64,000 bases of DNA, taken from IMG/VR virus record IMGVR_UViG_3300023184_000038, positions 62,001 through 126,000 of that record; one strand, written 5' to 3'. Source of the DNA: a virus. Made by a program: the position numbers and the translations under genes. Below, one piece after another: positions 5,413 through 64,000 of this stretch (its first letter is position 1; each line of letters opens with the position of its first letter). The notes under the pieces were generated by a model. That model saw nothing but the letters and a program-made list of their open reading frames with translations. It was not told the DNA's origin and searched no databases.

Positions 5413-7218
5413 ATGGATATTAAAGAATTAAATTCGTTTAAAGTGTCAGATGCTATTACATTTCATGACCATCTTAATCCTAGGCTGTTTCACGGGAATA
5501 GATTACAACCGGCCGTTGAAAAACAATTAAAAATTATTGCCCAAGATTTTTTACAAGAATTGGGAGTATATGATATTAATGTTAAAGATATAACAGTATC
5601 TGGCTCAAATGCAGCATATAGTTATACTAAGCATAGTGATTTAGATTTACATATATTAGTTGATTTATCTGAACAGCCAAATGATGAAGTATATAAAGAA
5701 TTATTTCATGCGAAAAAAACACTGTATAATGATAGCCATGACATTAAAGTTAATGGAATTCCAGTTGAATTGTATGTTCAAGATGTTGCATTTCCAGTAA
5801 TAAGTTTAGGTGAATATAGTGTATTAAACAATAAATGGATTAAAATTCCAAATAAGCGTAGAAGTAATTTTGACCATACCGATGCTAAAGCAAAGTATGA
5901 AAAATTAGCAAAATTAATAGAATATGCGTTACATGCTAACGATTTAAAACAAGTAAAAAATGTTTTAGAAACTATTAAAAGATACCGACAAACTGGATTA
6001 GAAAAGGGCGGAGAATTTGGCCCTGAAAATATTGTTTTCAAAGCATTGCGTAGCCAAGGCTTAATTACAAAATTATACGATTTAAGAGATAAATTACATA
6101 GTAAAAAATTAAGTTTAAGCGGGATGTATCAAGAAATTGATGAGGGTTTTGATCAACCATATCCAATAATATGGGAAAAGGGTTACCATGGAGATGTTGA
6201 TGCACTTGCTAAATTACCTGATGGTACTTATTTAAGCATTATGTTTAATAAGCAAGATAATGTTAAACCTGATGACAAGACATGGATGGTTGAATTTCAT
6301 AGAAACAACAGCCAAGAAGTAACAGGGGAGGGTGATGCACAAAAAGTATTTGCTACTGTATTGTCTGCCATTCAACAATTTATTATAAAATACAAACCAC
6401 TAAAAATATATTTCTCAGCAAGCAAAGAACCAGCGCCACTGAAACTCAGTAGCCCTGCTGGTGCTAAAGCAAACCCTGAAAGTCGTGCCAAGTTATATGA
6501 TAGATTAGTACTCCGTTATGCTAAATCTTGGGGATATAAGTTTTTCCGCGCTGACAATGGTTCTGATGTTATGTATCAATTTTCAAGAATACCAAAGCAA
6601 AAGACTGTGGGTGAAGATTACACTGGGCAATATGCTGCTGAAAAAACTCCAGTTGTAAGTCCTTATGCCGGCATCAAGGATAATCAATATCGTGGTGGGA
6701 TAAGTGAAGCAGCAGACATGGATTTTGAAGAAGGTGATTGTCCTATATTTGCCATTGCGTTACATCGTCTATCTAAGTTGCCATTAATGGCATTAGTTGA
6801 ATATGATGAAGAACTAGGTAGTACAGTATTAATCCATGCGTATGTAAAACTTGATGATAGATGGCGTCTGGATATCACTGGTGAAACAGATGTAGATTGG
6901 ATGTTACAAAAATATCCAAACAATGGTAACGCCGAAGAAATTGAGATTGGTGAGAAAGATTTGTTAGAATTGGGGTATGGAAAAAGCAAATGTCCTACTT
7001 TGCAACAGGTTCTACCCCATGCTAAAGAAGTTTTACAAAATATAAATGAAGCAAGTGGGTATATTCCAAGCGAAAAACAAAAGAATGATCCACGATTTAA
7101 GACGGCACTAACCGTAGATATTAGGCCAGATGCTATCAAAAAGAATGCAAAAGCATTTTATTGGAACACTAGTCGTGCCGGAATCCCTCCAACGGCAAAA
7201 GCAAACGGCAAAATATAA
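5413..7218 (+). CDS. Multi-domain protein with N-terminal nucleotidyltransferase domain, 601 aa
   Basis: Residues ~60-130 carry the minimal nucleotidyltransferase signature GSNAAYSYTKHSDLDLHI (G64-S65, D76-x-D78), as in KNTase/CCA-type and MNT enzymes. A middle alpha/beta part (~250-400) is unrecognised. Residues ~440-535 begin EEGDCPIFAIALHRL and contain a Cys and a His in an order that could suit a papain-like fold (weak). The last ~55 residues (GYIPSEKQKNDPRF onward) look like a separate module. The N-terminus DIKEL fits an IxE prohead-protease site weakly. It is the first of a run of modular, probably virion-packaged proteins. Confidence 0.6.
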   Translation: MDIKELNSFKVSDAITFHDHLNPRLFHGNRLQPAVEKQLKIIAQDFLQELGVYDINVKDITVSGSNAAYSYTKHSDLDLHILVDLSEQPNDEVYKELFHAKKTLYNDSHDIKVNGIPVELYVQDVAFPVISLGEYSVLNNKWIKIPNKRRSNFDHTDAKAKYEKLAKLIEYALHANDLKQVKNVLETIKRYRQTGLEKGGEFGPENIVFKALRSQGLITKLYDLRDKLHSKKLSLSGMYQEIDEGFDQPYPIIWEKGYHGDVDALAKLPDGTYLSIMFNKQDNVKPDDKTWMVEFHRNNSQEVTGEGDAQKVFATVLSAIQQFIIKYKPLKIYFSASKEPAPLKLSSPAGAKANPESRAKLYDRLVLRYAKSWGYKFFRADNGSDVMYQFSRIPKQKTVGEDYTGQYAAEKTPVVSPYAGIKDNQYRGGISEAADMDFEEGDCPIFAIALHRLSKLPLMALVEYDEELGSTVLIHAYVKLDDRWRLDITGETDVDWMLQKYPNNGNAEEIEIGEKDLLELGYGKSKCPTLQQVLPHAKEVLQNINEASGYIPSEKQKNDPRFKTALTVDIRPDAIKKNAKAFYWNTSRAGIPPTAKANGKI

Positions 7219-7243
7219 CTAACTTCAGTTACATGGGGTTTTT

Positions 7244-39314: not shown

Positions 39315-39371
39315 ACACGCATTGTTAGACAATAGTGTTTAACAATAAAAAACTTTCTTAAGGAAAATAAA

Positions 39372-40685
39372 ATGGCAACAGTAAATGCAACCGCTGTAAA
39401 AACAGCAACAGCAAAAACAACCGCTAATAAAACTTCACTGACAGTATTGAATGGTCAATCTGTTGCTGTGGTAATTGCATCGGTACCCTCTGAAAAGACT
39501 AAACTAGTGTGGCGTCCAAACCGTCAGAAGGTAAATATTAGTCAATTAGATAATGTCTTGGCTAAGACTAAATCTCAATTAAAGAACAAAAATGTCGTTG
39601 ACTTGACTAATGAAATTTCGGGTTACAAGAAGTTTCAAAATATTATTGCTTTCTTAAAGGCAAACAACATTAAATTTAAGGTTGTAGACATACCTAAATT
39701 TGAGAATCACAAACTCCGTGCTTTAATCATCCCTGAGGAAGTACAACGTCTATTAGATAAACCTCATTGTGCTAAAATCAGTAGCGGGTTTGATCCTCGC
39801 TTACTAAGCCCTATCTTTATTGTGCGACTGAAGGGCACTAATCAATTGCTGGTTATCGACAGTATGCACACATTAACTGTAGTTGGTTCATTTGCAAAAG
39901 AAGGTATTTGGGATAACGTTCCTGCAGATTGGCTTGACTTTGAATATCCATGCTGGGTAGTAGATACTGACCAAGAGAGTTTTTCTCTATTGGCTGGTCT
40001 CTATCGTAACGGTGAAGGTTCTAAGCCTTGGGACGAATTTGACTATCATCGTGTTCATGTTCGTAGCTATCGTTTGTATGGGGACAATGGTCTTAATGAC
40101 AAATACAAACTAGCTGCTGAGAAACAAACTCATTGTGAAAGTGAAGATACGATTCCAATGGCACCTAATCATCCTCATGCAGGTCGTGCCGGTACGTTGA
40201 CTCATATCAAGGCTTTGACTAGCTTTACTGATGATGATATGGATAAATTCAAATTCATTATTTCAACGAATAACAAATACTGGCATGGTTCAGAAGTGGA
40301 CTCGCAAGCATTTGGTTTCTATGGTCACTTGTATGCAGGACTAATGAATGGCAACGTGCCTATGAAGGGTAAAGCGTTTGATGAATTCATGAAGAATATT
40401 CATGCTATCGTTAAAACTTTCTTTGTTGGGTTTCCTGAGTTGCGTAGCATCACCGCAGAAACACACAAGGCATGGTTGAAGATTCAAGGCAAAGATGCAA
40501 AGACTCCACCTTATAACTGTGCATTAGCATTGGTACTTAAAATGTACAAGAAAATGCACGGTAAGCACTTGGTTACTACTGATGTAAGTGATTTCATTTA
40601 TACACCAGCACCGGGAATCACGCATGATATCTATGATTCTCTTCCGCTGAATATTCGTCAGAATGTCGGTAACTACACTCTCTAA
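39372..40685 (+). CDS. ParB/sulfiredoxin-like domain protein, 437 aa
   Basis: After an Ala/Thr/Lys-rich leader (~1-25), residues ~120-190 resemble a ParB-like domain: RALIIPEEVQRLL, PIFIVRLKGTNQLLVIDSMH where ParB proteins have a DGxHR-type motif. The Arg is replaced (SMHTL), so activity may differ. The C-terminal ~250 residues are helical and unrecognised. Driven by a perfect early promoter, which suggests high early expression. Confidence 0.5.
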   Translation: MATVNATAVKTATAKTTANKTSLTVLNGQSVAVVIASVPSEKTKLVWRPNRQKVNISQLDNVLAKTKSQLKNKNVVDLTNEISGYKKFQNIIAFLKANNIKFKVVDIPKFENHKLRALIIPEEVQRLLDKPHCAKISSGFDPRLLSPIFIVRLKGTNQLLVIDSMHTLTVVGSFAKEGIWDNVPADWLDFEYPCWVVDTDQESFSLLAGLYRNGEGSKPWDEFDYHRVHVRSYRLYGDNGLNDKYKLAAEKQTHCESEDTIPMAPNHPHAGRAGTLTHIKALTSFTDDDMDKFKFIISTNNKYWHGSEVDSQAFGFYGHLYAGLMNGNVPMKGKAFDEFMKNIHAIVKTFFVGFPELRSITAETHKAWLKIQGKDAKTPPYNCALALVLKMYKKMHGKHLVTTDVSDFIYTPAPGITHDIYDSLPLNIRQNVGNYTL

Positions 40686-59927: not shown

Positions 59928-61133
59928 ATGACCACAGAACTTAAATTAAGCCATTGCTCTTTTTGCGGTAGCCACAAAGATAAAGTAAAGAAATTAATAG
60001 TAAGTGAGGATGTTGCTATTTGTAGTGATTGTATTGACTTGTGCAATCAATTAATGATAGATGATATTACTGAAAAAATGCCCGAAATTAAATCAGAATA
60101 TCAGTATGATCCTATTACTATAAAAGAATATTTAGATGAACATATTATAGGGCAAAAAAATGCTAAAGTGGTATTAAGTGTAGCAATCGCCAATCATTAT
60201 AAACGCATACGAAGCCCTTCACCTGATTTAGAAATTCAAAAAGGAAATGTATTGTTAATTGGACCAACTGGTTCAGGTAAAACATTGTTGGCTAAAACAG
60301 TAGCAAAGTATCTTAAAGTTCCATTTGTAGTAGCCGATGCAACTAGTTTAACTGAAGCCGGATATGTTGGAGATGATGTAGAAAGTATGATTTCTATGTT
60401 GTTGAACTCTGCTGGTGGCGATGTAAAACTTGCAGAACAAGGAATTGTATTTATTGATGAAATTGATAAAATTGCTAGAAAAAGCGAAAGTACTAGTATT
60501 ACCCGAGATGTGTCCGGTGAGGGAGTGCAACAAGCATTGCTGAAAATGGTAGAAGGTACTATTTGCCGTATACCCGCAGGTGGTGGGAGAAAAGCACCAA
60601 ACGGTGATATGATTGAAGTTAATACAAAAAATATTTTATTTATAGGCGGCGGAGCGTTTGTTGGATTAAAGGAAATCATCAATAATAGATTGAATGGAAC
60701 CAGTATTGGGTTTGGTGCTGACATTAAAGATAAGCAAAAAGAAAGCGAGTTACATTTAGTATCACCTGATGATTTAACTAGTTTTGGAATGATTCCGGAA
60801 TTTATCGGTAGATTTACCACAACGGTAAGTGTGGCAAATCTAACTAAAGCCGAATTAATTAAAGTTTTAACTAGTGTAAAAAACAATTATATTGACCAAT
60901 ACAAGTATTTGTTAAGTATTGATGGTATTGAATTGAACTTTACCAATGATGCATTAGGACAATTGGCTGAAAATACGCTTAAATTGAATACAGGGGCACG
61001 AGGGTTACATACTGAAATAGAAAAGGTATTAATGCATCATATGTACAATACTAAACAATACCGCAGTGATAAAATTACTACATTAGAAATCACTCAGGAA
61101 CAGGTATTAGAACCCAAAGTAGTTAACGGTTAA
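59928..61133 (+). CDS. clpX: ClpX AAA+ unfoldase, 401 aa
   Basis: Full-length ClpX. The N-terminal zinc domain has CSFCGSHK and ICSDCIDLC; Walker A is GPTGSGKT, the pore loop AGYVGDDVES, Walker B VFIDEIDKI, and the sensor-2 Arg lies in NTGARGLH. NGTSIGFGADI is the IGF ClpP-docking loop, so partnership with ClpP is expected. ClpX genes of phages are rare. It stands directly upstream of dnaK. Confidence 0.93.
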   Translation: MTTELKLSHCSFCGSHKDKVKKLIVSEDVAICSDCIDLCNQLMIDDITEKMPEIKSEYQYDPITIKEYLDEHIIGQKNAKVVLSVAIANHYKRIRSPSPDLEIQKGNVLLIGPTGSGKTLLAKTVAKYLKVPFVVADATSLTEAGYVGDDVESMISMLLNSAGGDVKLAEQGIVFIDEIDKIARKSESTSITRDVSGEGVQQALLKMVEGTICRIPAGGGRKAPNGDMIEVNTKNILFIGGGAFVGLKEIINNRLNGTSIGFGADIKDKQKESELHLVSPDDLTSFGMIPEFIGRFTTTVSVANLTKAELIKVLTSVKNNYIDQYKYLLSIDGIELNFTNDALGQLAENTLKLNTGARGLHTEIEKVLMHHMYNTKQYRSDKITTLEITQEQVLEPKVVNG

Positions 61134-61168
61134 CCAAAATAATATATTTGTTAATATTTTCCTGTTAG

Positions 61169-61176
61169 AATAAATA
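61169..61176 (+). promoter_or_regulatory. Late-like box AATAAATA before dnaK
   Basis: GAATAAATACAT, 6 bases before the dnaK leader hairpin. One base further from the T4 late consensus than the other boxes. Confidence 0.35.
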
Positions 61177-61181
61177 CATAT

Positions 61182-61209
61182 TGTAATACGCCGATGGTCG
61201 GGTATTACA
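61182..61209 (+). promoter_or_regulatory. Leader hairpin of dnaK (CCGA-TGG-TCGG type)
   Basis: Outer 8 bp stem TGTAATAC/GTATTACA, a bulged G, inner stem CCGA/TCGG and triloop TGG. The same architecture occurs at 63145-63174 with a different outer stem, so pairing is conserved by covariation. Confidence 0.85.
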
Positions 61210-61219
61210 TAAAATCATC

Positions 61220-61235
61220 TTGCTTAATAAAGGAG
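61220..61235 (+). promoter_or_regulatory. ROSE-like thermometer hairpin on the dnaK ribosome site
   Basis: TTGCT (61220-61224) can pair with AGGAG (61231-61235) across a 6-base loop, leaving a G-G opposition as in the UUGCU/SD helix of ROSE RNA thermometers. It covers the Shine-Dalgarno of ATG 61242. Confidence 0.65.
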
Positions 61236-61241
61236 AAAACG

Positions 61242-63116
61242 ATGAGCAAAGTTATAGGTATCGATTTAGGTACAACAAATTCATGTGTAGCAATAATTGA
61301 AAATGGCGCTACAAAAATAATTGAAAATTCTGAAGGAAACCGTACTACACCAAGTATAGTAGCATATGCCAATGGTGAGATTTTAGTAGGAGCTTCCGCA
61401 AAAAGACAAGCGGTAACTAATCCCAAAAATACTATCTATGCTAGTAAACGACTAATTGGTCGTAAATTTAAAGAAGATGCTGTTCAAAAAGATATCAATT
61501 TAATGCCCTACAAAATTGTTGCGGCAGATAATGGTGATGCTTGGGTAGAAGTCAATGACGATAAATTGGCTCCGCCTCAAATCTCAGCAGAGGTTCTTCG
61601 TAAAATGAAAAAAACGGCTGAGGATTATTTGGGTGAAACAGTAACTCAAGCCGTTATCACTGTTCCAGCATACTTTAATGATAGTCAACGACAAGCAACT
61701 AAAGACGCAGGAAAAATTGCAGGACTAGAGGTGCTACGAATTATCAATGAACCAACTGCGGCAGCACTAGCCTACGGTATGGATAAAGAAGATAAACGTG
61801 ACCGCAAAATTGCAGTTTATGATTTAGGTGGTGGTACATTTGACGTAAGCATTATTGAAATTGCTAATGTAGATAATGATAAACAAATTGAGGTTCTCTC
61901 AACTAACGGTGATACCTTCTTAGGCGGTGAAGATTTTGACCAGCGTATTATGGATTATCTAGTAGATGAATTCAAGAAAGATACTGGGGTCGACCTGAAA
62001 AAAGATGTATTAGCATTACAACGATTAAAAGAAGCGGCTGAAAAAGCCAAAATAGAATTATCTAGTTCGGTACAAACTGATGTTAATTTGCCATATATTA
62101 CAGCAGATGCTAGTGGACCTAAGCATATGAATGTAAAACTTACTAGAAGTAAATTAGAACAACTAGTAGAAGAATTAATTCAACGCAGTATTGGTCCGTG
62201 CAAAATTGCAATGGCTGATGCAAAGGTTACCACAACTGATATTGATGAAGTTATTTTGGTTGGTGGTATGACTCGTATGCCAAAAGTACAAGAAGTTGTT
62301 GAAAAATTGTTTGGAAAAGCTCCTCGTAAAGATGTTAATCCAGATGAGGCTGTAGCCGCTGGCGCTGCTATTCAAGGTGATGTATTGGGAGGAGGAAGGA
62401 CTGATGTTTTACTATTAGATGTTACTCCGTTAAGTTTGGGCATTGAAACTATGGGCGGAATTATGTCTAAATTAATTCAAAAAAATACTACTATTCCCAC
62501 AAAGGCATCACAAACATTTTCAACTGCTGAAGATAATCAACCGGCCGTTACTGTTAAAGCATTTCAAGGAGAACGTGAGTTAGTTCAACACAATAAATTA
62601 TTGGGAGAGTTTAATTTAGAAGGTATTGCACCAGCTAGACGCGGCCAACCCCAAATTGAAATTGCGTTTGATATTGATGCTAATGGTATTATGCATGTAA
62701 GTGCTAAAGATAAAAACACCGGTAAAGAAAACAAAATCACTATTAAATCTAATAGCGGGTTAAGTGAAGCCGAGATTCAAACCATGATCAAAGATGCGGA
62801 ACTCAACGCTGAAGAAGACAAAAAACAACGTGAATTGATTGAGGCACGTAATAACGCTGAGTCATCATTACACCAAGTTAAAGAAGATATAGACAAATAC
62901 AGCGAATTGATTAGTCCTGAAGAAAAAACCAACATTGATGATACTGTGCAGGCTATTAAAGATGCTATCACGGGAACAGATGTTAAAATTATCACTGATA
63001 GTATTCCTAAATTATATGAGGCAATGAAGCCGCTTATTGCTAAAAAACATGAGGCTGAAGAAAAATCTAAAAATAAAGAAGATACTACAGTAGTTGATGC
63101 TGAAATTGTATCATAA
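61242..63116 (+). CDS. dnaK: DnaK (Hsp70) chaperone, 624 aa
   Basis: Full-length bacterial-type Hsp70. [29 protein letters not shown] and [15 protein letters not shown] are the ATPase signatures; the linker [19 protein letters not shown] and the substrate-binding domain follow. The C-terminus VVDAEIVS echoes the proteobacterial VVDAEF ending. Start 61242 is set by AGGAG and homology. No dnaJ or grpE is seen, so host co-chaperones are presumably used. Confidence 0.96.
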
Positions 63117-63136
63117 TATATTGCATAATATACTAT

Positions 63137-63144
63137 GATAAATA
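63137..63144 (+). promoter_or_regulatory. T4-late-like box GATAAATA before hsp20
   Basis: GATAAATATGTG abuts the leader hairpin. A T4-type start about 6 bases downstream would cut into the hairpin's 5' arm, so the hairpin may be read only on transcripts from upstream. Confidence 0.35.
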
Positions 63145-63174
63145 TGTGTGAGTGCCGATAGTCGGGCTCACACA
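63145..63174 (+). promoter_or_regulatory. Leader hairpin of hsp20 (CCGA-TAG-TCGG type)
   Basis: Outer stem TGTGTGAG/CTCACACA plus a T-G pair, a bulged G, inner CCGA/TCGG, triloop TAG. Inner helix and bulge equal those before dnaK; the outer stem sequence differs but pairs fully. Confidence 0.85.
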
Positions 63175-63181
63175 GTCATAT

Positions 63182-63195
63182 TTGCTTATAAGGAG
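63182..63195 (+). promoter_or_regulatory. ROSE-like thermometer hairpin on the hsp20 ribosome site
   Basis: TTGCT (63182-63186), loop TATA, AGGAG (63191-63195); same pairing with a G-G opposition as before dnaK. ROSE elements are known upstream of small heat-shock genes in proteobacteria. Confidence 0.65.
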
Positions 63196-63202
63196 AAATA
63201 AA

Positions 63203-63664
63203 ATGACAAAAACTTTAACCCTTCGTTCCGCTGATATTCCAGCATTTCACAAATTTGGTATCGGTTTCGATAACATGTTTGACGAACTATTGCGAGTAAA
63301 TGCTCAACAATCAAACAATAATTATCCACCGTACAACATTGTGCAAATCAATGAGGACGAATTTATGATTAGTATTGCTGTTGCAGGATTCGGGCACGAT
63401 AATCTAACAGTTACTAAGGAAAAAAACTTCTTAATAATTGACGGTGCACATAGTACCGACACTGTTAATACCAACACTATTAACTATCTACATAGAGGTA
63501 TCAGTGAAAGAAATTTCCGTAGGGAATTTCAATTAGCCGATCATGTGGAAATTACTAATGCTCATTTAGAGTTAGGCATACTTAATCTTTATCTAAAACG
63601 TGAAGTTCCCGAGGCACAAAAGCCCAGGAATATACAAATTACAGTTGCCGGCCCTACGTTATAG
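63203..63664 (+). CDS. IbpA-like small heat-shock protein (Hsp20), 153 aa
   Basis: Alpha-crystallin domain protein. IGFDNMFDELL, NNYPPYNIVQINEDEFMISI, AVAGFGHDNLTV, HRGISERNFRREFQLADHVE and LYLKREVPEAQKPRNIQI align closely with E. coli IbpA/IbpB block by block. It holds unfolding proteins for DnaK/ClpB. Start 63203 is set by AGGAG. Small Hsps are known in T4-like phages. It is encoded next to dnaK with a matching leader. Confidence 0.93.
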   Translation: MTKTLTLRSADIPAFHKFGIGFDNMFDELLRVNAQQSNNNYPPYNIVQINEDEFMISIAVAGFGHDNLTVTKEKNFLIIDGAHSTDTVNTNTINYLHRGISERNFRREFQLADHVEITNAHLELGILNLYLKREVPEAQKPRNIQITVAGPTL

Positions 63665-63711
63665 TAGTTGGATCGTCTGTACAGTATTCAAATAAGACTA
63701 ACCAAAACTAT

Positions 63712-63739
63712 TTGCATAATGAAATAAATACTGTATAAT
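63712..63739 (+). promoter_or_regulatory. Sigma70-like promoter upstream of clpS
   Basis: TTGCAT - 16 - TATAAT, 108 bases before ATG 63847. A second TATAAT lies at 63793-63798 with a poor -35. Confidence 0.65.
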
Positions 63740-63740
63740 A

Positions 63741-63765
63741 GCAGTGTGCAATAACTGCACATTGC
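63741..63765 (+). promoter_or_regulatory. 10 bp inverted repeat at the predicted start site
   Basis: GCAGTGTGCA, loop ATAAC, TGCACATTGC: 10 bp with one G-T pair, beginning 2 bases after the -10. Its position suits an operator or a 5'-end hairpin. Confidence 0.65.
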
Positions 63766-63807
63766 TATAAATTACAACTGGTAACTAAATAGTATAATAG
63801 AGAGGAA

Positions 63808-63827
63808 ATGTACAACATGTTGTACAT
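63808..63827. promoter_or_regulatory. Perfect 20-base palindrome in the clpS leader
   Basis: ATGTACAACATGTTGTACAT is its own reverse complement. It lies 9 bases after the second TATAAT and 19 bases before ATG 63847. Suits a dimeric repressor site or a loopless RNA hairpin. Confidence 0.75.
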
Positions 63828-63846
63828 AATTTAAAAAGGGAAATAC

Positions 63847-64000
63847 ATGTCTAATATAGAAACTAAAGTAAAAATCAAACCAAATCTTGGATTGCAGGAA
63901 CCGCCCTTATTCAAAATAATTTACATTAACGATGAAGTAACTAGTATGGAATTTGTAGTAACATCCTTGATTGATTATTTTAGTTATAATACAGATACTG
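63847..64000 (+). CDS. clpS: ClpS adaptor, 3' end outside the window
   Basis: The first 51 residues are visible. EPPLFKIIYINDEVTSMEFV and VTSLIDYFSYNTD align with ClpS ([20 protein letters not shown] in E. coli), including the NDE/NDD and TxMEFV of the N-degron pocket. ClpS hands N-end-rule substrates to ClpA, and a clpA gene enters the window at base 1. AAAAAGGGA precedes the start. Confidence 0.88.
   Translation, partial: MSNIETKVKIKPNLGLQEPPLFKIIYINDEVTSMEFVVTSLIDYFSYNTDT

Follow-up and report, generated by a model that had tools for sequence, protein, structure and literature searches.

Within a 64,000-nucleotide stretch of the IMG/VR virus record IMGVR_UViG_3300023184_000038 (positions 62,001 to 126,000, referred to here as the window), the chaperone genes dnaK and hsp20 are each preceded by a leader that is predicted to be a translational RNA thermometer of the ROSE type, and sequence comparison makes it likely that this element has been taken over from ibpA and has spread to other phage chaperone genes. 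The leaders have a conserved structure, are linked to the ROSE family by reciprocal matches and are placed at start codons, and other aquatic phages have related leaders upstream of chaperone genes. Hairpin I reads TGTAATAC-G-CCGA-TGG-TCGG-GTATTACA in the dnaK leader, where 32 bases separate it from the ATG, and TGTGTGAG-T-G-CCGA-TAG-TCGG-G-CTCACACA in the hsp20 leader, which has one further U.G pair and 28 bases to the ATG (Table 1). Downstream of it, TTGCT stands opposite AGGAG of the Shine-Dalgarno (SD) region (61220/61231 for dnaK and 63182/63191 for hsp20). Apart from the further U.G pair, all of these elements, with both distances, had been described in a first-pass annotation of the DNA and every one was found in place. 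The G-G opposition that it drew within the box stood only in part: the G is present, but it is better drawn as a bulge between U.G and C-G, and its opposite base is not fixed by sequence.

In the 143,665-base virus record the inner hairpin CCGATNGTCGG is confined to the dnaK and hsp20 leaders, with one copy in each, and within the window the pattern T[TC][GA]CTT-N1-6-(A)GGAG was likewise found in these two leaders only. Folding of the single window sequences is moderately unusual (z of -2.8 to -4.8), with hairpin I by far the most stable part of the computed fold, and a generic 6-bp complement to the SD (one bulge allowed) is present in 10 of 45 window genes, dnaK and hsp20 among them. Comparison with relatives was therefore needed, and the predicted SD pairing, which is weak from a single sequence, is strong once relatives are compared.

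Conservation and covariation among viral leaders

Viral contigs yielded 80 loci for DnaK and 80 for Hsp20; the two top-ranking loci (L123 and L203) lie on a single contig that is almost identical to the window. Removal of 48 duplicates reduced the 160 leaders to 112 distinct ones (61 dnaK and 51 hsp20), and the anti-SD box is found in 110 of these (61/61 and 49/51), while the spacer varies. The dnaK box reads CTTGCTT (35 leaders), CTTACTT (20), CTCACTT (4) or CTCGCTT (2); the hsp20 exceptions are L219, without a leader, and L225, with a changed SD. As bulged base, 37 of the 61 dnaK leaders have G and 24 have A; 49/51 hsp20 leaders have G. When a covariance model built from 13 viral leaders (R1) was run on 100 sources, namely the window and 99 loci, 145 matches were obtained: 50 at a dnaK start (62 dnaK loci), 36 at an hsp20 start (37 loci, a match at this position not being found in the remaining one), three in the window and 56 elsewhere, where the following gene was hsp20 in 50 cases, dnaK in two and another gene in four.

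Alignment A4 comprises 132 distinct rows, including a spurious one from window position 39320, and under-samples A-type leaders with an extra hairpin. Within it 94.9% of pair cells are paired and 10 of the 11 hairpin I pairs have changed on both sides, and its covariation score was 0.426 against 0.144 when shuffled (0/500) and at most 0.105 in slid controls. For 42 diverse rows including named phages, 93.7% of pair cells were paired, with a score of 0.487 against 0.182 when shuffled (0/500) and at most 0.126 when slid. Both alignments are structure-fitted and hence lean towards structure, although the slid controls lie far lower. In the SD helix of the 42 rows three of six pairs are invariant, and the U.G pair is C-G in 16/42. 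Since hairpin I covaries, it is pairing and not sequence that is kept. The claim of the first-pass annotation that the outer stem covaries is borne out by the pairs changed on both sides, and related phages, examined for an unpaired outer stem, keep it paired as its sequence varies. A DNA operator, a cruciform or a terminator in place of an RNA element might also account for perfect inverted repeats close to promoter-like sequences; we find this scarcely credible, given that the arms differ freely yet stay complementary, that direction and distance to the start codon are fixed, and that there is no terminator-like site on the + strand in 60900-63900.

In many dnaK leaders, L124, L126, L143, L151 and L164 among them, an additional hairpin, for example GGGCATAGTGCCC, separates hairpin I from the one that holds the SD. 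A further window match to the phage models, at 39320-39374 (21.2 and 20.3 bits), was rejected, as it has CTTTCTTAAGGAAA instead of the ROSE box. It lies before a 437-amino-acid open reading frame (ORF) whose SD is overlapped by a palindromic TTTCTTAAGGAAA, and a sigma70-like promoter is also present.

Relationship to the ROSE family and to bacterial ibpA leaders

In ROSE elements the SD lies in the last of two to four hairpins, and in both window leaders it lies in the 3'-most of two; both also carry U(U/C)GCU with a bulged G opposite the SD, as ROSE elements do. At a relaxed threshold, Rfam ROSE_3 (RF02523) ranks first for both and is matched over its full length (model positions 1-69 of 69), with scores of 28.3 and 26.8 bits (E of 0.0031 and 0.0072). 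Conversely, a model made from phage leaders only (R2) matches the Pseudomonas ibpA leader with 36.5 bits (E of 1.4e-8); this leader, which lies in L403, an unverified 'phage' record, scores 69.2 bits with ROSE_3. R2 also matches 3 of 8 Burkholderiales hsp20 loci (34.2, 31.6 and 26.4 bits) and 37 of 274 gammaproteobacterial genomes at E <=0.1; among 20 gammaproteobacterial loci inspected, six matches stand before hsp20, the four best included, and none before dnaK. These results point to a reciprocal family relation between phage leaders and proteobacterial ibpA leaders, and the ROSE-type reading of the earlier annotation is upheld by the full-length ROSE_3 matches together with the match of the phage-only model to bacterial ibpA leaders. 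Among 80 dnaK loci from a genome collection, only L337 was matched significantly, at two places: ahead of dnaK and ahead of the gene that follows it. As in the bacterial genomes examined the element accompanies ibpA, its presence before dnaK would be a phage extension.

L337 is a 7.7-kb contig binned as Halobacteroidaceae; it is phage-like and most likely a misbinned phage contig. R2 matches directly before bacterial dnaK in L365 and L360 (12.4 and 11.8 bits) lack the box and were rejected. ROSE_3 gave no match in 150 Burkholderiales genomes, where few candidates were scored per genome and absence is not implied, and six matches, all under its limit, in 369 genomes of the class that holds Burkholderiales, again with few candidates scored per genome. 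The best of the six (L389, 37.8 bits) precedes a 65-amino-acid ORF whose start resembles Pseudomonas IbpA by eye and which has no BLAST match to phage Hsp20; no IbpA-like ORF follows the other five. R1 found no match in 22 bacterial genomes. An Rfam freshwater-2 match (20.8 bits, E of 3.1) was at chance level and was rejected, and a scan of viral contigs for CCGATNGTCGG-N15-45-AAGGAG, whose listed matches were near an estimated chance expectation, was not used.

We infer repression, opening by heat, origin and copying along the following lines. Hairpin I, at or close to the mRNA 5' end, would serve as a stable scaffold that does not melt, and in hairpin II the box CUUGCUU would pair with the SD AAGGAG in a helix weakened by the bulged purine; in this phage group the leader may cover the start codon too. 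Ribosomes would be kept off in the cold; warmth, or anything else that undoes the helix, would expose the SD and AUG and allow DnaK and Hsp20 to be made. Phage hairpin II is assumed to melt in this way because the Pseudomonas short ROSE, of the same two-hairpin build, has its SD blocked when cold and melts in hairpin II only, and deletion of its bulged G locks the element (PMC3669281; this and the other papers cited are drawn on in excerpt). The element most likely arrived with an ibpA-type gene from a proteobacterial host, and would have lost its sigma-32 promoter to phage or sigma-70-type promoters before it was copied to other phage chaperone genes.

The likeness to the Pseudomonas ibpA short ROSE extends to both hairpins: in hairpin I a bulged G sits above a U.G pair and CC/GG, in hairpin II the SD is faced by U(U/C)GCU with its bulged G, and in the case of the window hsp20 an IbpA-type gene lies downstream. 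The phage leaders differ in being AT-rich, in standing also before dnaK, groES and a phasin-like gene, and, in one phage group, in having A in place of the bulged G. Moreover, the P. aeruginosa ibpA start codon is open at all temperatures (PMC3669281), whereas the phage leader is complementary to the start-codon region.

Distribution in named phages and upstream of other genes

An Hsp20 match was found by tblastn in 508 phage records, mostly cyanophages by name, and 18 named phages were sampled (15 cyanophages, Methylophilales phage Melnitz-2, Sinorhizobium phage Phosso and phage C48C1). R1 matches at the hsp20 start in 17 of them (15.5 to 49.8 bits, E up to 0.056), DSL-LC02 being the one without a match there. 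Across the 18 whole genomes, exactly one R1 match was found in 15, and 14 of these single matches end at the annotated hsp20 start; that of S-SSM4 ends at an in-frame ATG 48 bases upstream, to which its hsp20 start was shifted. A gene annotated as RegA or translation repressor lies directly before hsp20 in 7/18 named phages, and the box and start region might be a site recognised by the phage translational repressor RegA that does not act by folding. We consider this very unlikely, as bacterial ibpA is preceded by the same leader, the covariation of hairpin I preserves pairing rather than sequence, and a RegA neighbour was not seen in the short stretch inspected in 11/18.

The predicted thermometer leader is also found before other genes. 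In L178 an R1 match (6893-6949) lies directly before a groES (Cpn10) ORF (6950-7234), whilst in L217 (match 1775-1833) and L229 (1777-1835) the leader precedes a 14-amino-acid ORF that is followed by groES (1957-2250 in L217); in L232 an R1 match also precedes a 14-amino-acid ORF. R2 gave 60 matches at E <=0.01 in 30 virus records, of which 43 are at dnaK or hsp20 by position, 13 stand before a phasin-like ORF of 85-101 amino acids and four are weak and have no gene assigned. The phasin-like leaders come from 13 of the 30 records (L291, L294-L303, L306 and L307) and have sigma70-type promoters upstream by eye. The phasin-like protein of L296 is only 21% identical to the first member, Pfam Phasin_2 matched two of eight such proteins weakly (best E of 0.014), and no relatives were found in 60 Burkholderiales genomes.

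In L217 and L229 a sigma70-like promoter is seen by eye between the 14-amino-acid ORF and groES, as if the thermometer were bypassed. A T4-type Gp23 capsid protein was found in three of seven related virus records tested (G007, G017 and G023), with no match in the window's 143-kb record.

Complementarity to the start codon and computed folding

In part of this phage group, the stretch of leader beside the box is the complement of the start region, and the two change together: examples are GTCAT/ATGAC, TTGTTC/GAACAA, TGATTC/GAATCA and GGTTC/GAACC for hsp20, and TTGCTT/GAGCAA, TTACTT/GAGTAA, GCTCA/TGAGC and TTAGA/TCTAA for dnaK. The hsp20 start-codon covariation over all 78 rows was 4.42 against 4.08 in shuffles that ignore relatedness (0/1000; 1/1000 for the distant set). 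With the box included, that of dnaK was 5.20 against 4.68 (0/500) in the second of two dnaK tests, from which L156, its start reset and 3 bases off, was excluded. To judge from these comparisons, complementarity between leader and start codon that changes together in part of the set is new here. Computed values for the bare CUUGCUU/AAGGAG helix rise from -1.4 kcal/mol at 15 C to +1.0 at 37 C and cross zero between 25 and 30 C.

Several results weigh against the thermometer reading. Both window leaders fall under the curated ROSE_3 gathering limit of 43 bits and are therefore not counted as curated members, and no relative reached this limit in 16 loci scanned. The ROSE G is replaced by A in 24/61 dnaK leaders, and R1 has no match at the dnaK start in 12/62 dnaK loci, nearly all of them with A-type leaders carrying an extra hairpin. 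Start-codon covariation did not reach significance in three of the comparisons: the close hsp20 set (416/1000), the named phages (871/1000) and dnaK without the box (110/1000). The folding computations do not separate phage leaders from controls: median computed SD accessibility over 61 dnaK leaders is high at every temperature (0.68 at 10 C, 0.80 at 42 C), that of hsp20 resembles other window genes and shuffled leaders, and the only closed-looking leaders, those of the 15 named phages (of 18) for which it was computed, barely open (0.06 to 0.12). Furthermore, in the best predicted dnaK fold the partner of the box is GAGCAA of the start region and not the SD. This last prediction may mislead, since P. 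aeruginosa ibpA also starts ATGAGCAA and was found by probing at 25 C to have a closed SD and an open start codon (PMC3669281).

The dominant stability of hairpin I and the high computed accessibility of the dnaK SD would also suit a 5' mRNA stabiliser beside an ordinary strong SD, with no translational gate, and hairpin I does start close to the supposed transcription start: a start six bases past the T4-late-promoter-like element AATAAATA, a promoter spacing that we presume, would equal the first base of the dnaK hairpin I. Such a stabiliser would not call for a box opposite the SD, which is kept in 110/112 leaders despite the varying spacer, nor for a leader and start region that change together, albeit with non-significant subsets, and we rate it as highly improbable. 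A T4-late-like [N]ATAAATA lies <=110 bases upstream of 48/61 dnaK and 47/51 hsp20 starts, and sigma-70 type promoters (<=2 mismatches) are present at 14/61 dnaK leaders (about 3.3 in shuffled sequence) and 26/51 hsp20 leaders (about 1.9). A sigma-32 promoter, which does not define the RNA element as such, was found by simple pattern at none of the 112 leaders; in this they differ from the Pseudomonas-type ibpA thermometer.

Two bulges and possible repression by Hsp20

One mini-motif is common to hairpins I and II: a purine bulges out between a U.G (or C-G) pair and a C-G pair. Among 167 leaders the bulges were G/G in 101, A/A in 42 and discordant in 12, and no hairpin was found by the parser in 12; by eye, 11 of the discordant rows were judged parser errors and the dnaK leader of L166 real. 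The types of the dnaK and hsp20 leaders, eight rows having been labelled G by hand, match in 46/47 contigs, with L166 mixed. From sequence, then, it appears to be a new observation that the bulged purines of both hairpins switch together (G/G or A/A) and match within a contig, and these natural variants raise the question of the purpose of hairpin I. The bulge label changes four to five times on the DnaK tree, at least three of these changes being forced. The window DnaK falls in an A-type clade (support 100/96), whilst the window leaders are G/G and the window Hsp20 falls in a G-type clade (100/99). Residue 61 of Hsp20 separates the leader types in 55/55.

A protein-operated switch would account for such agreement: phage Hsp20, when free of aggregates, would bind both bulged hairpins and repress hsp20, dnaK and other chaperone genes in trans, until the repression is lifted by unfolded protein and not by heat in itself. 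We hold this to be unlikely. There is a precedent in E. coli IbpA, which binds its own thermometer leader and represses its own translation in a manner that needs R93 (PMC10474464). The agreement of bulges across leaders and within contigs, the split at residue 61, and the G in both hairpins of the window dnaK leader, as in the G-type Hsp20 lineage and despite the A-type clade of its DnaK, would fit as well. In phage Hsp20, R93 is found in 80/80 close, 45/46 distant and 18/19 named-set rows (the Pseudomonas row being one of these 19), and Y34 in 80/80, 46/46 and 18/19. The assignment of both columns rests on an E. coli IbpA sequence that we take to be correct, and an arginine at the R93 position is common in small heat-shock proteins, which weighs against a repressor. 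In addition, K98, which is needed in E. coli IbpA (PMC10474464), is E in 80/80 close rows. Only three independent contrasts are available, all concordant or neutral (sign test p of 0.25), with hairpin I labelled by eye as A for all A-box leaders and L166 and as G for the rest. Residue 61, with one to three changes on the Hsp20 tree, may hitch-hike, and recombination that moves leaders as units would also yield concordant bulges, explaining part of the pattern. The phage arrangement shares with E. coli IbpA self-repression (PMC10474464) a small heat-shock protein that is paired with a ROSE-type leader and keeps R93 and Y34, and differs in that the putative RNA binding would reach dnaK in trans. 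A broader and equally speculative picture, of which we are doubtful, is that of a phage chaperone regulon with a two-bulge code, in which Hsp20 would be both a chaperone and an RNA-binding aggregation sensor that docks on U-R-C facing GG in hairpins I and II of the hsp20, dnaK, groES and phasin-like leaders; heat would melt the switch, unfolded protein would titrate the repressor, and leaders and Hsp20 would co-evolve as G/G and A/A types.

Comparison with known thermometers

The first-pass annotation knew of no described phage example, which is too wide a statement: phage RNA thermometers of the fourU type have been published for SPbeta blyA (PMC10586365) and for the sigma70 gene of a Caudoviricetes phage (PMC11182007), and an earlier one is cited as Altuvia 1989 (PMC11182007). 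Like the leaders studied here these lie in phage 5' UTRs (untranslated regions); the blyA and sigma70 elements differ in type and in preceding non-chaperone genes, and the excerpts note no multi-gene family across phages for any of the known ones (PMC10586365, PMC11182007). Among the full-text literature matches listed, whose scope largely excludes subscription papers, there was no ROSE-type thermometer in a phage, nor any thermometer before a phage chaperone gene. The thermometer of Altuvia 1989 is reportedly that of lambda cIII. Bacterial ROSE-like thermometers before ABC transporter genes share the U(U/C)GCU/SD core and the bulged G, deletion of which reduces heat induction; they serve non-chaperone genes and were found by motif search, whereas the phage leaders are backed by covariation and a family match (PMC11342760).

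To judge by the literature matches listed, no other RNA thermometer family is common to several phage lineages, and this would be the first. That a conserved ROSE-type leader stands before hsp20 and dnaK suggests that phages devote leader space to gating chaperone translation, probably by temperature. In the excerpts on phages with hsp20 or dnaK no thermometer is noted; hsp20 is a core gene of T4-like cyanophages for which a role in capsid scaffolding is only suggested, and its use to the phage is not settled (PMC3037559). The conserved leader makes the timing of chaperone synthesis during infection, and its temperature, testable.

Annotated features and gene context

For the window Hsp20 the best NCBIfam model is IbpA, at 135 bits and under its cut-off of 212. 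A 401-amino-acid ClpX-like gene with a zinc finger (59928-61133) lies directly before dnaK, and clpX-dnaK-hsp20 forms a proteostasis cluster.

Table 1. Features of the dnaK and hsp20 leaders and genes in window coordinates
Feature	Position	Strand	Basis
T4-late-promoter-like element AATAAATA before dnaK	61169..61176	+	putative function
Hairpin I of dnaK leader, bulged G 61190	61182..61209	+	fold, covariation
TCATC, complementary to GATGA 61241-61245 over dnaK start codon (lower stem)	61215..61219	+	predicted fold
Anti-SD box CTTGCTT, ROSE core U(U/C)GCU, bulged G 61222	61219..61225	+	ROSE_3 alignment, kept in relatives
Alternative dnaK helix, TTGCTT with GAGCAA	61220-61225 with 61244-61249	+	predicted fold
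SD AAGGAG of dnaK	61230..61235	+	pairs with 61219-61225 in ROSE model
dnaK, 624 amino acids	61242..63116	+	NCBIfam DnaK, 971 bits
T4-late-promoter-like element GATAAATA before hsp20	63137..63144	+	putative function
Hairpin I of hsp20 leader, bulged G 63154	63145..63174	+	fold
GTCAT, complementary to ATGAC 63203-63207 (start codon), lower stem of hairpin II	63175..63179	+	fold, start-codon covariation test
Anti-SD box TTTGCTT, bulged G 63184	63181..63187	+	ROSE_3 alignment
SD AAGGAG of hsp20	63190..63195	+	ROSE_3 alignment
hsp20, IbpA-type, 153 amino acids	63203..63664	+	best NCBIfam model IbpA, PHROG 432

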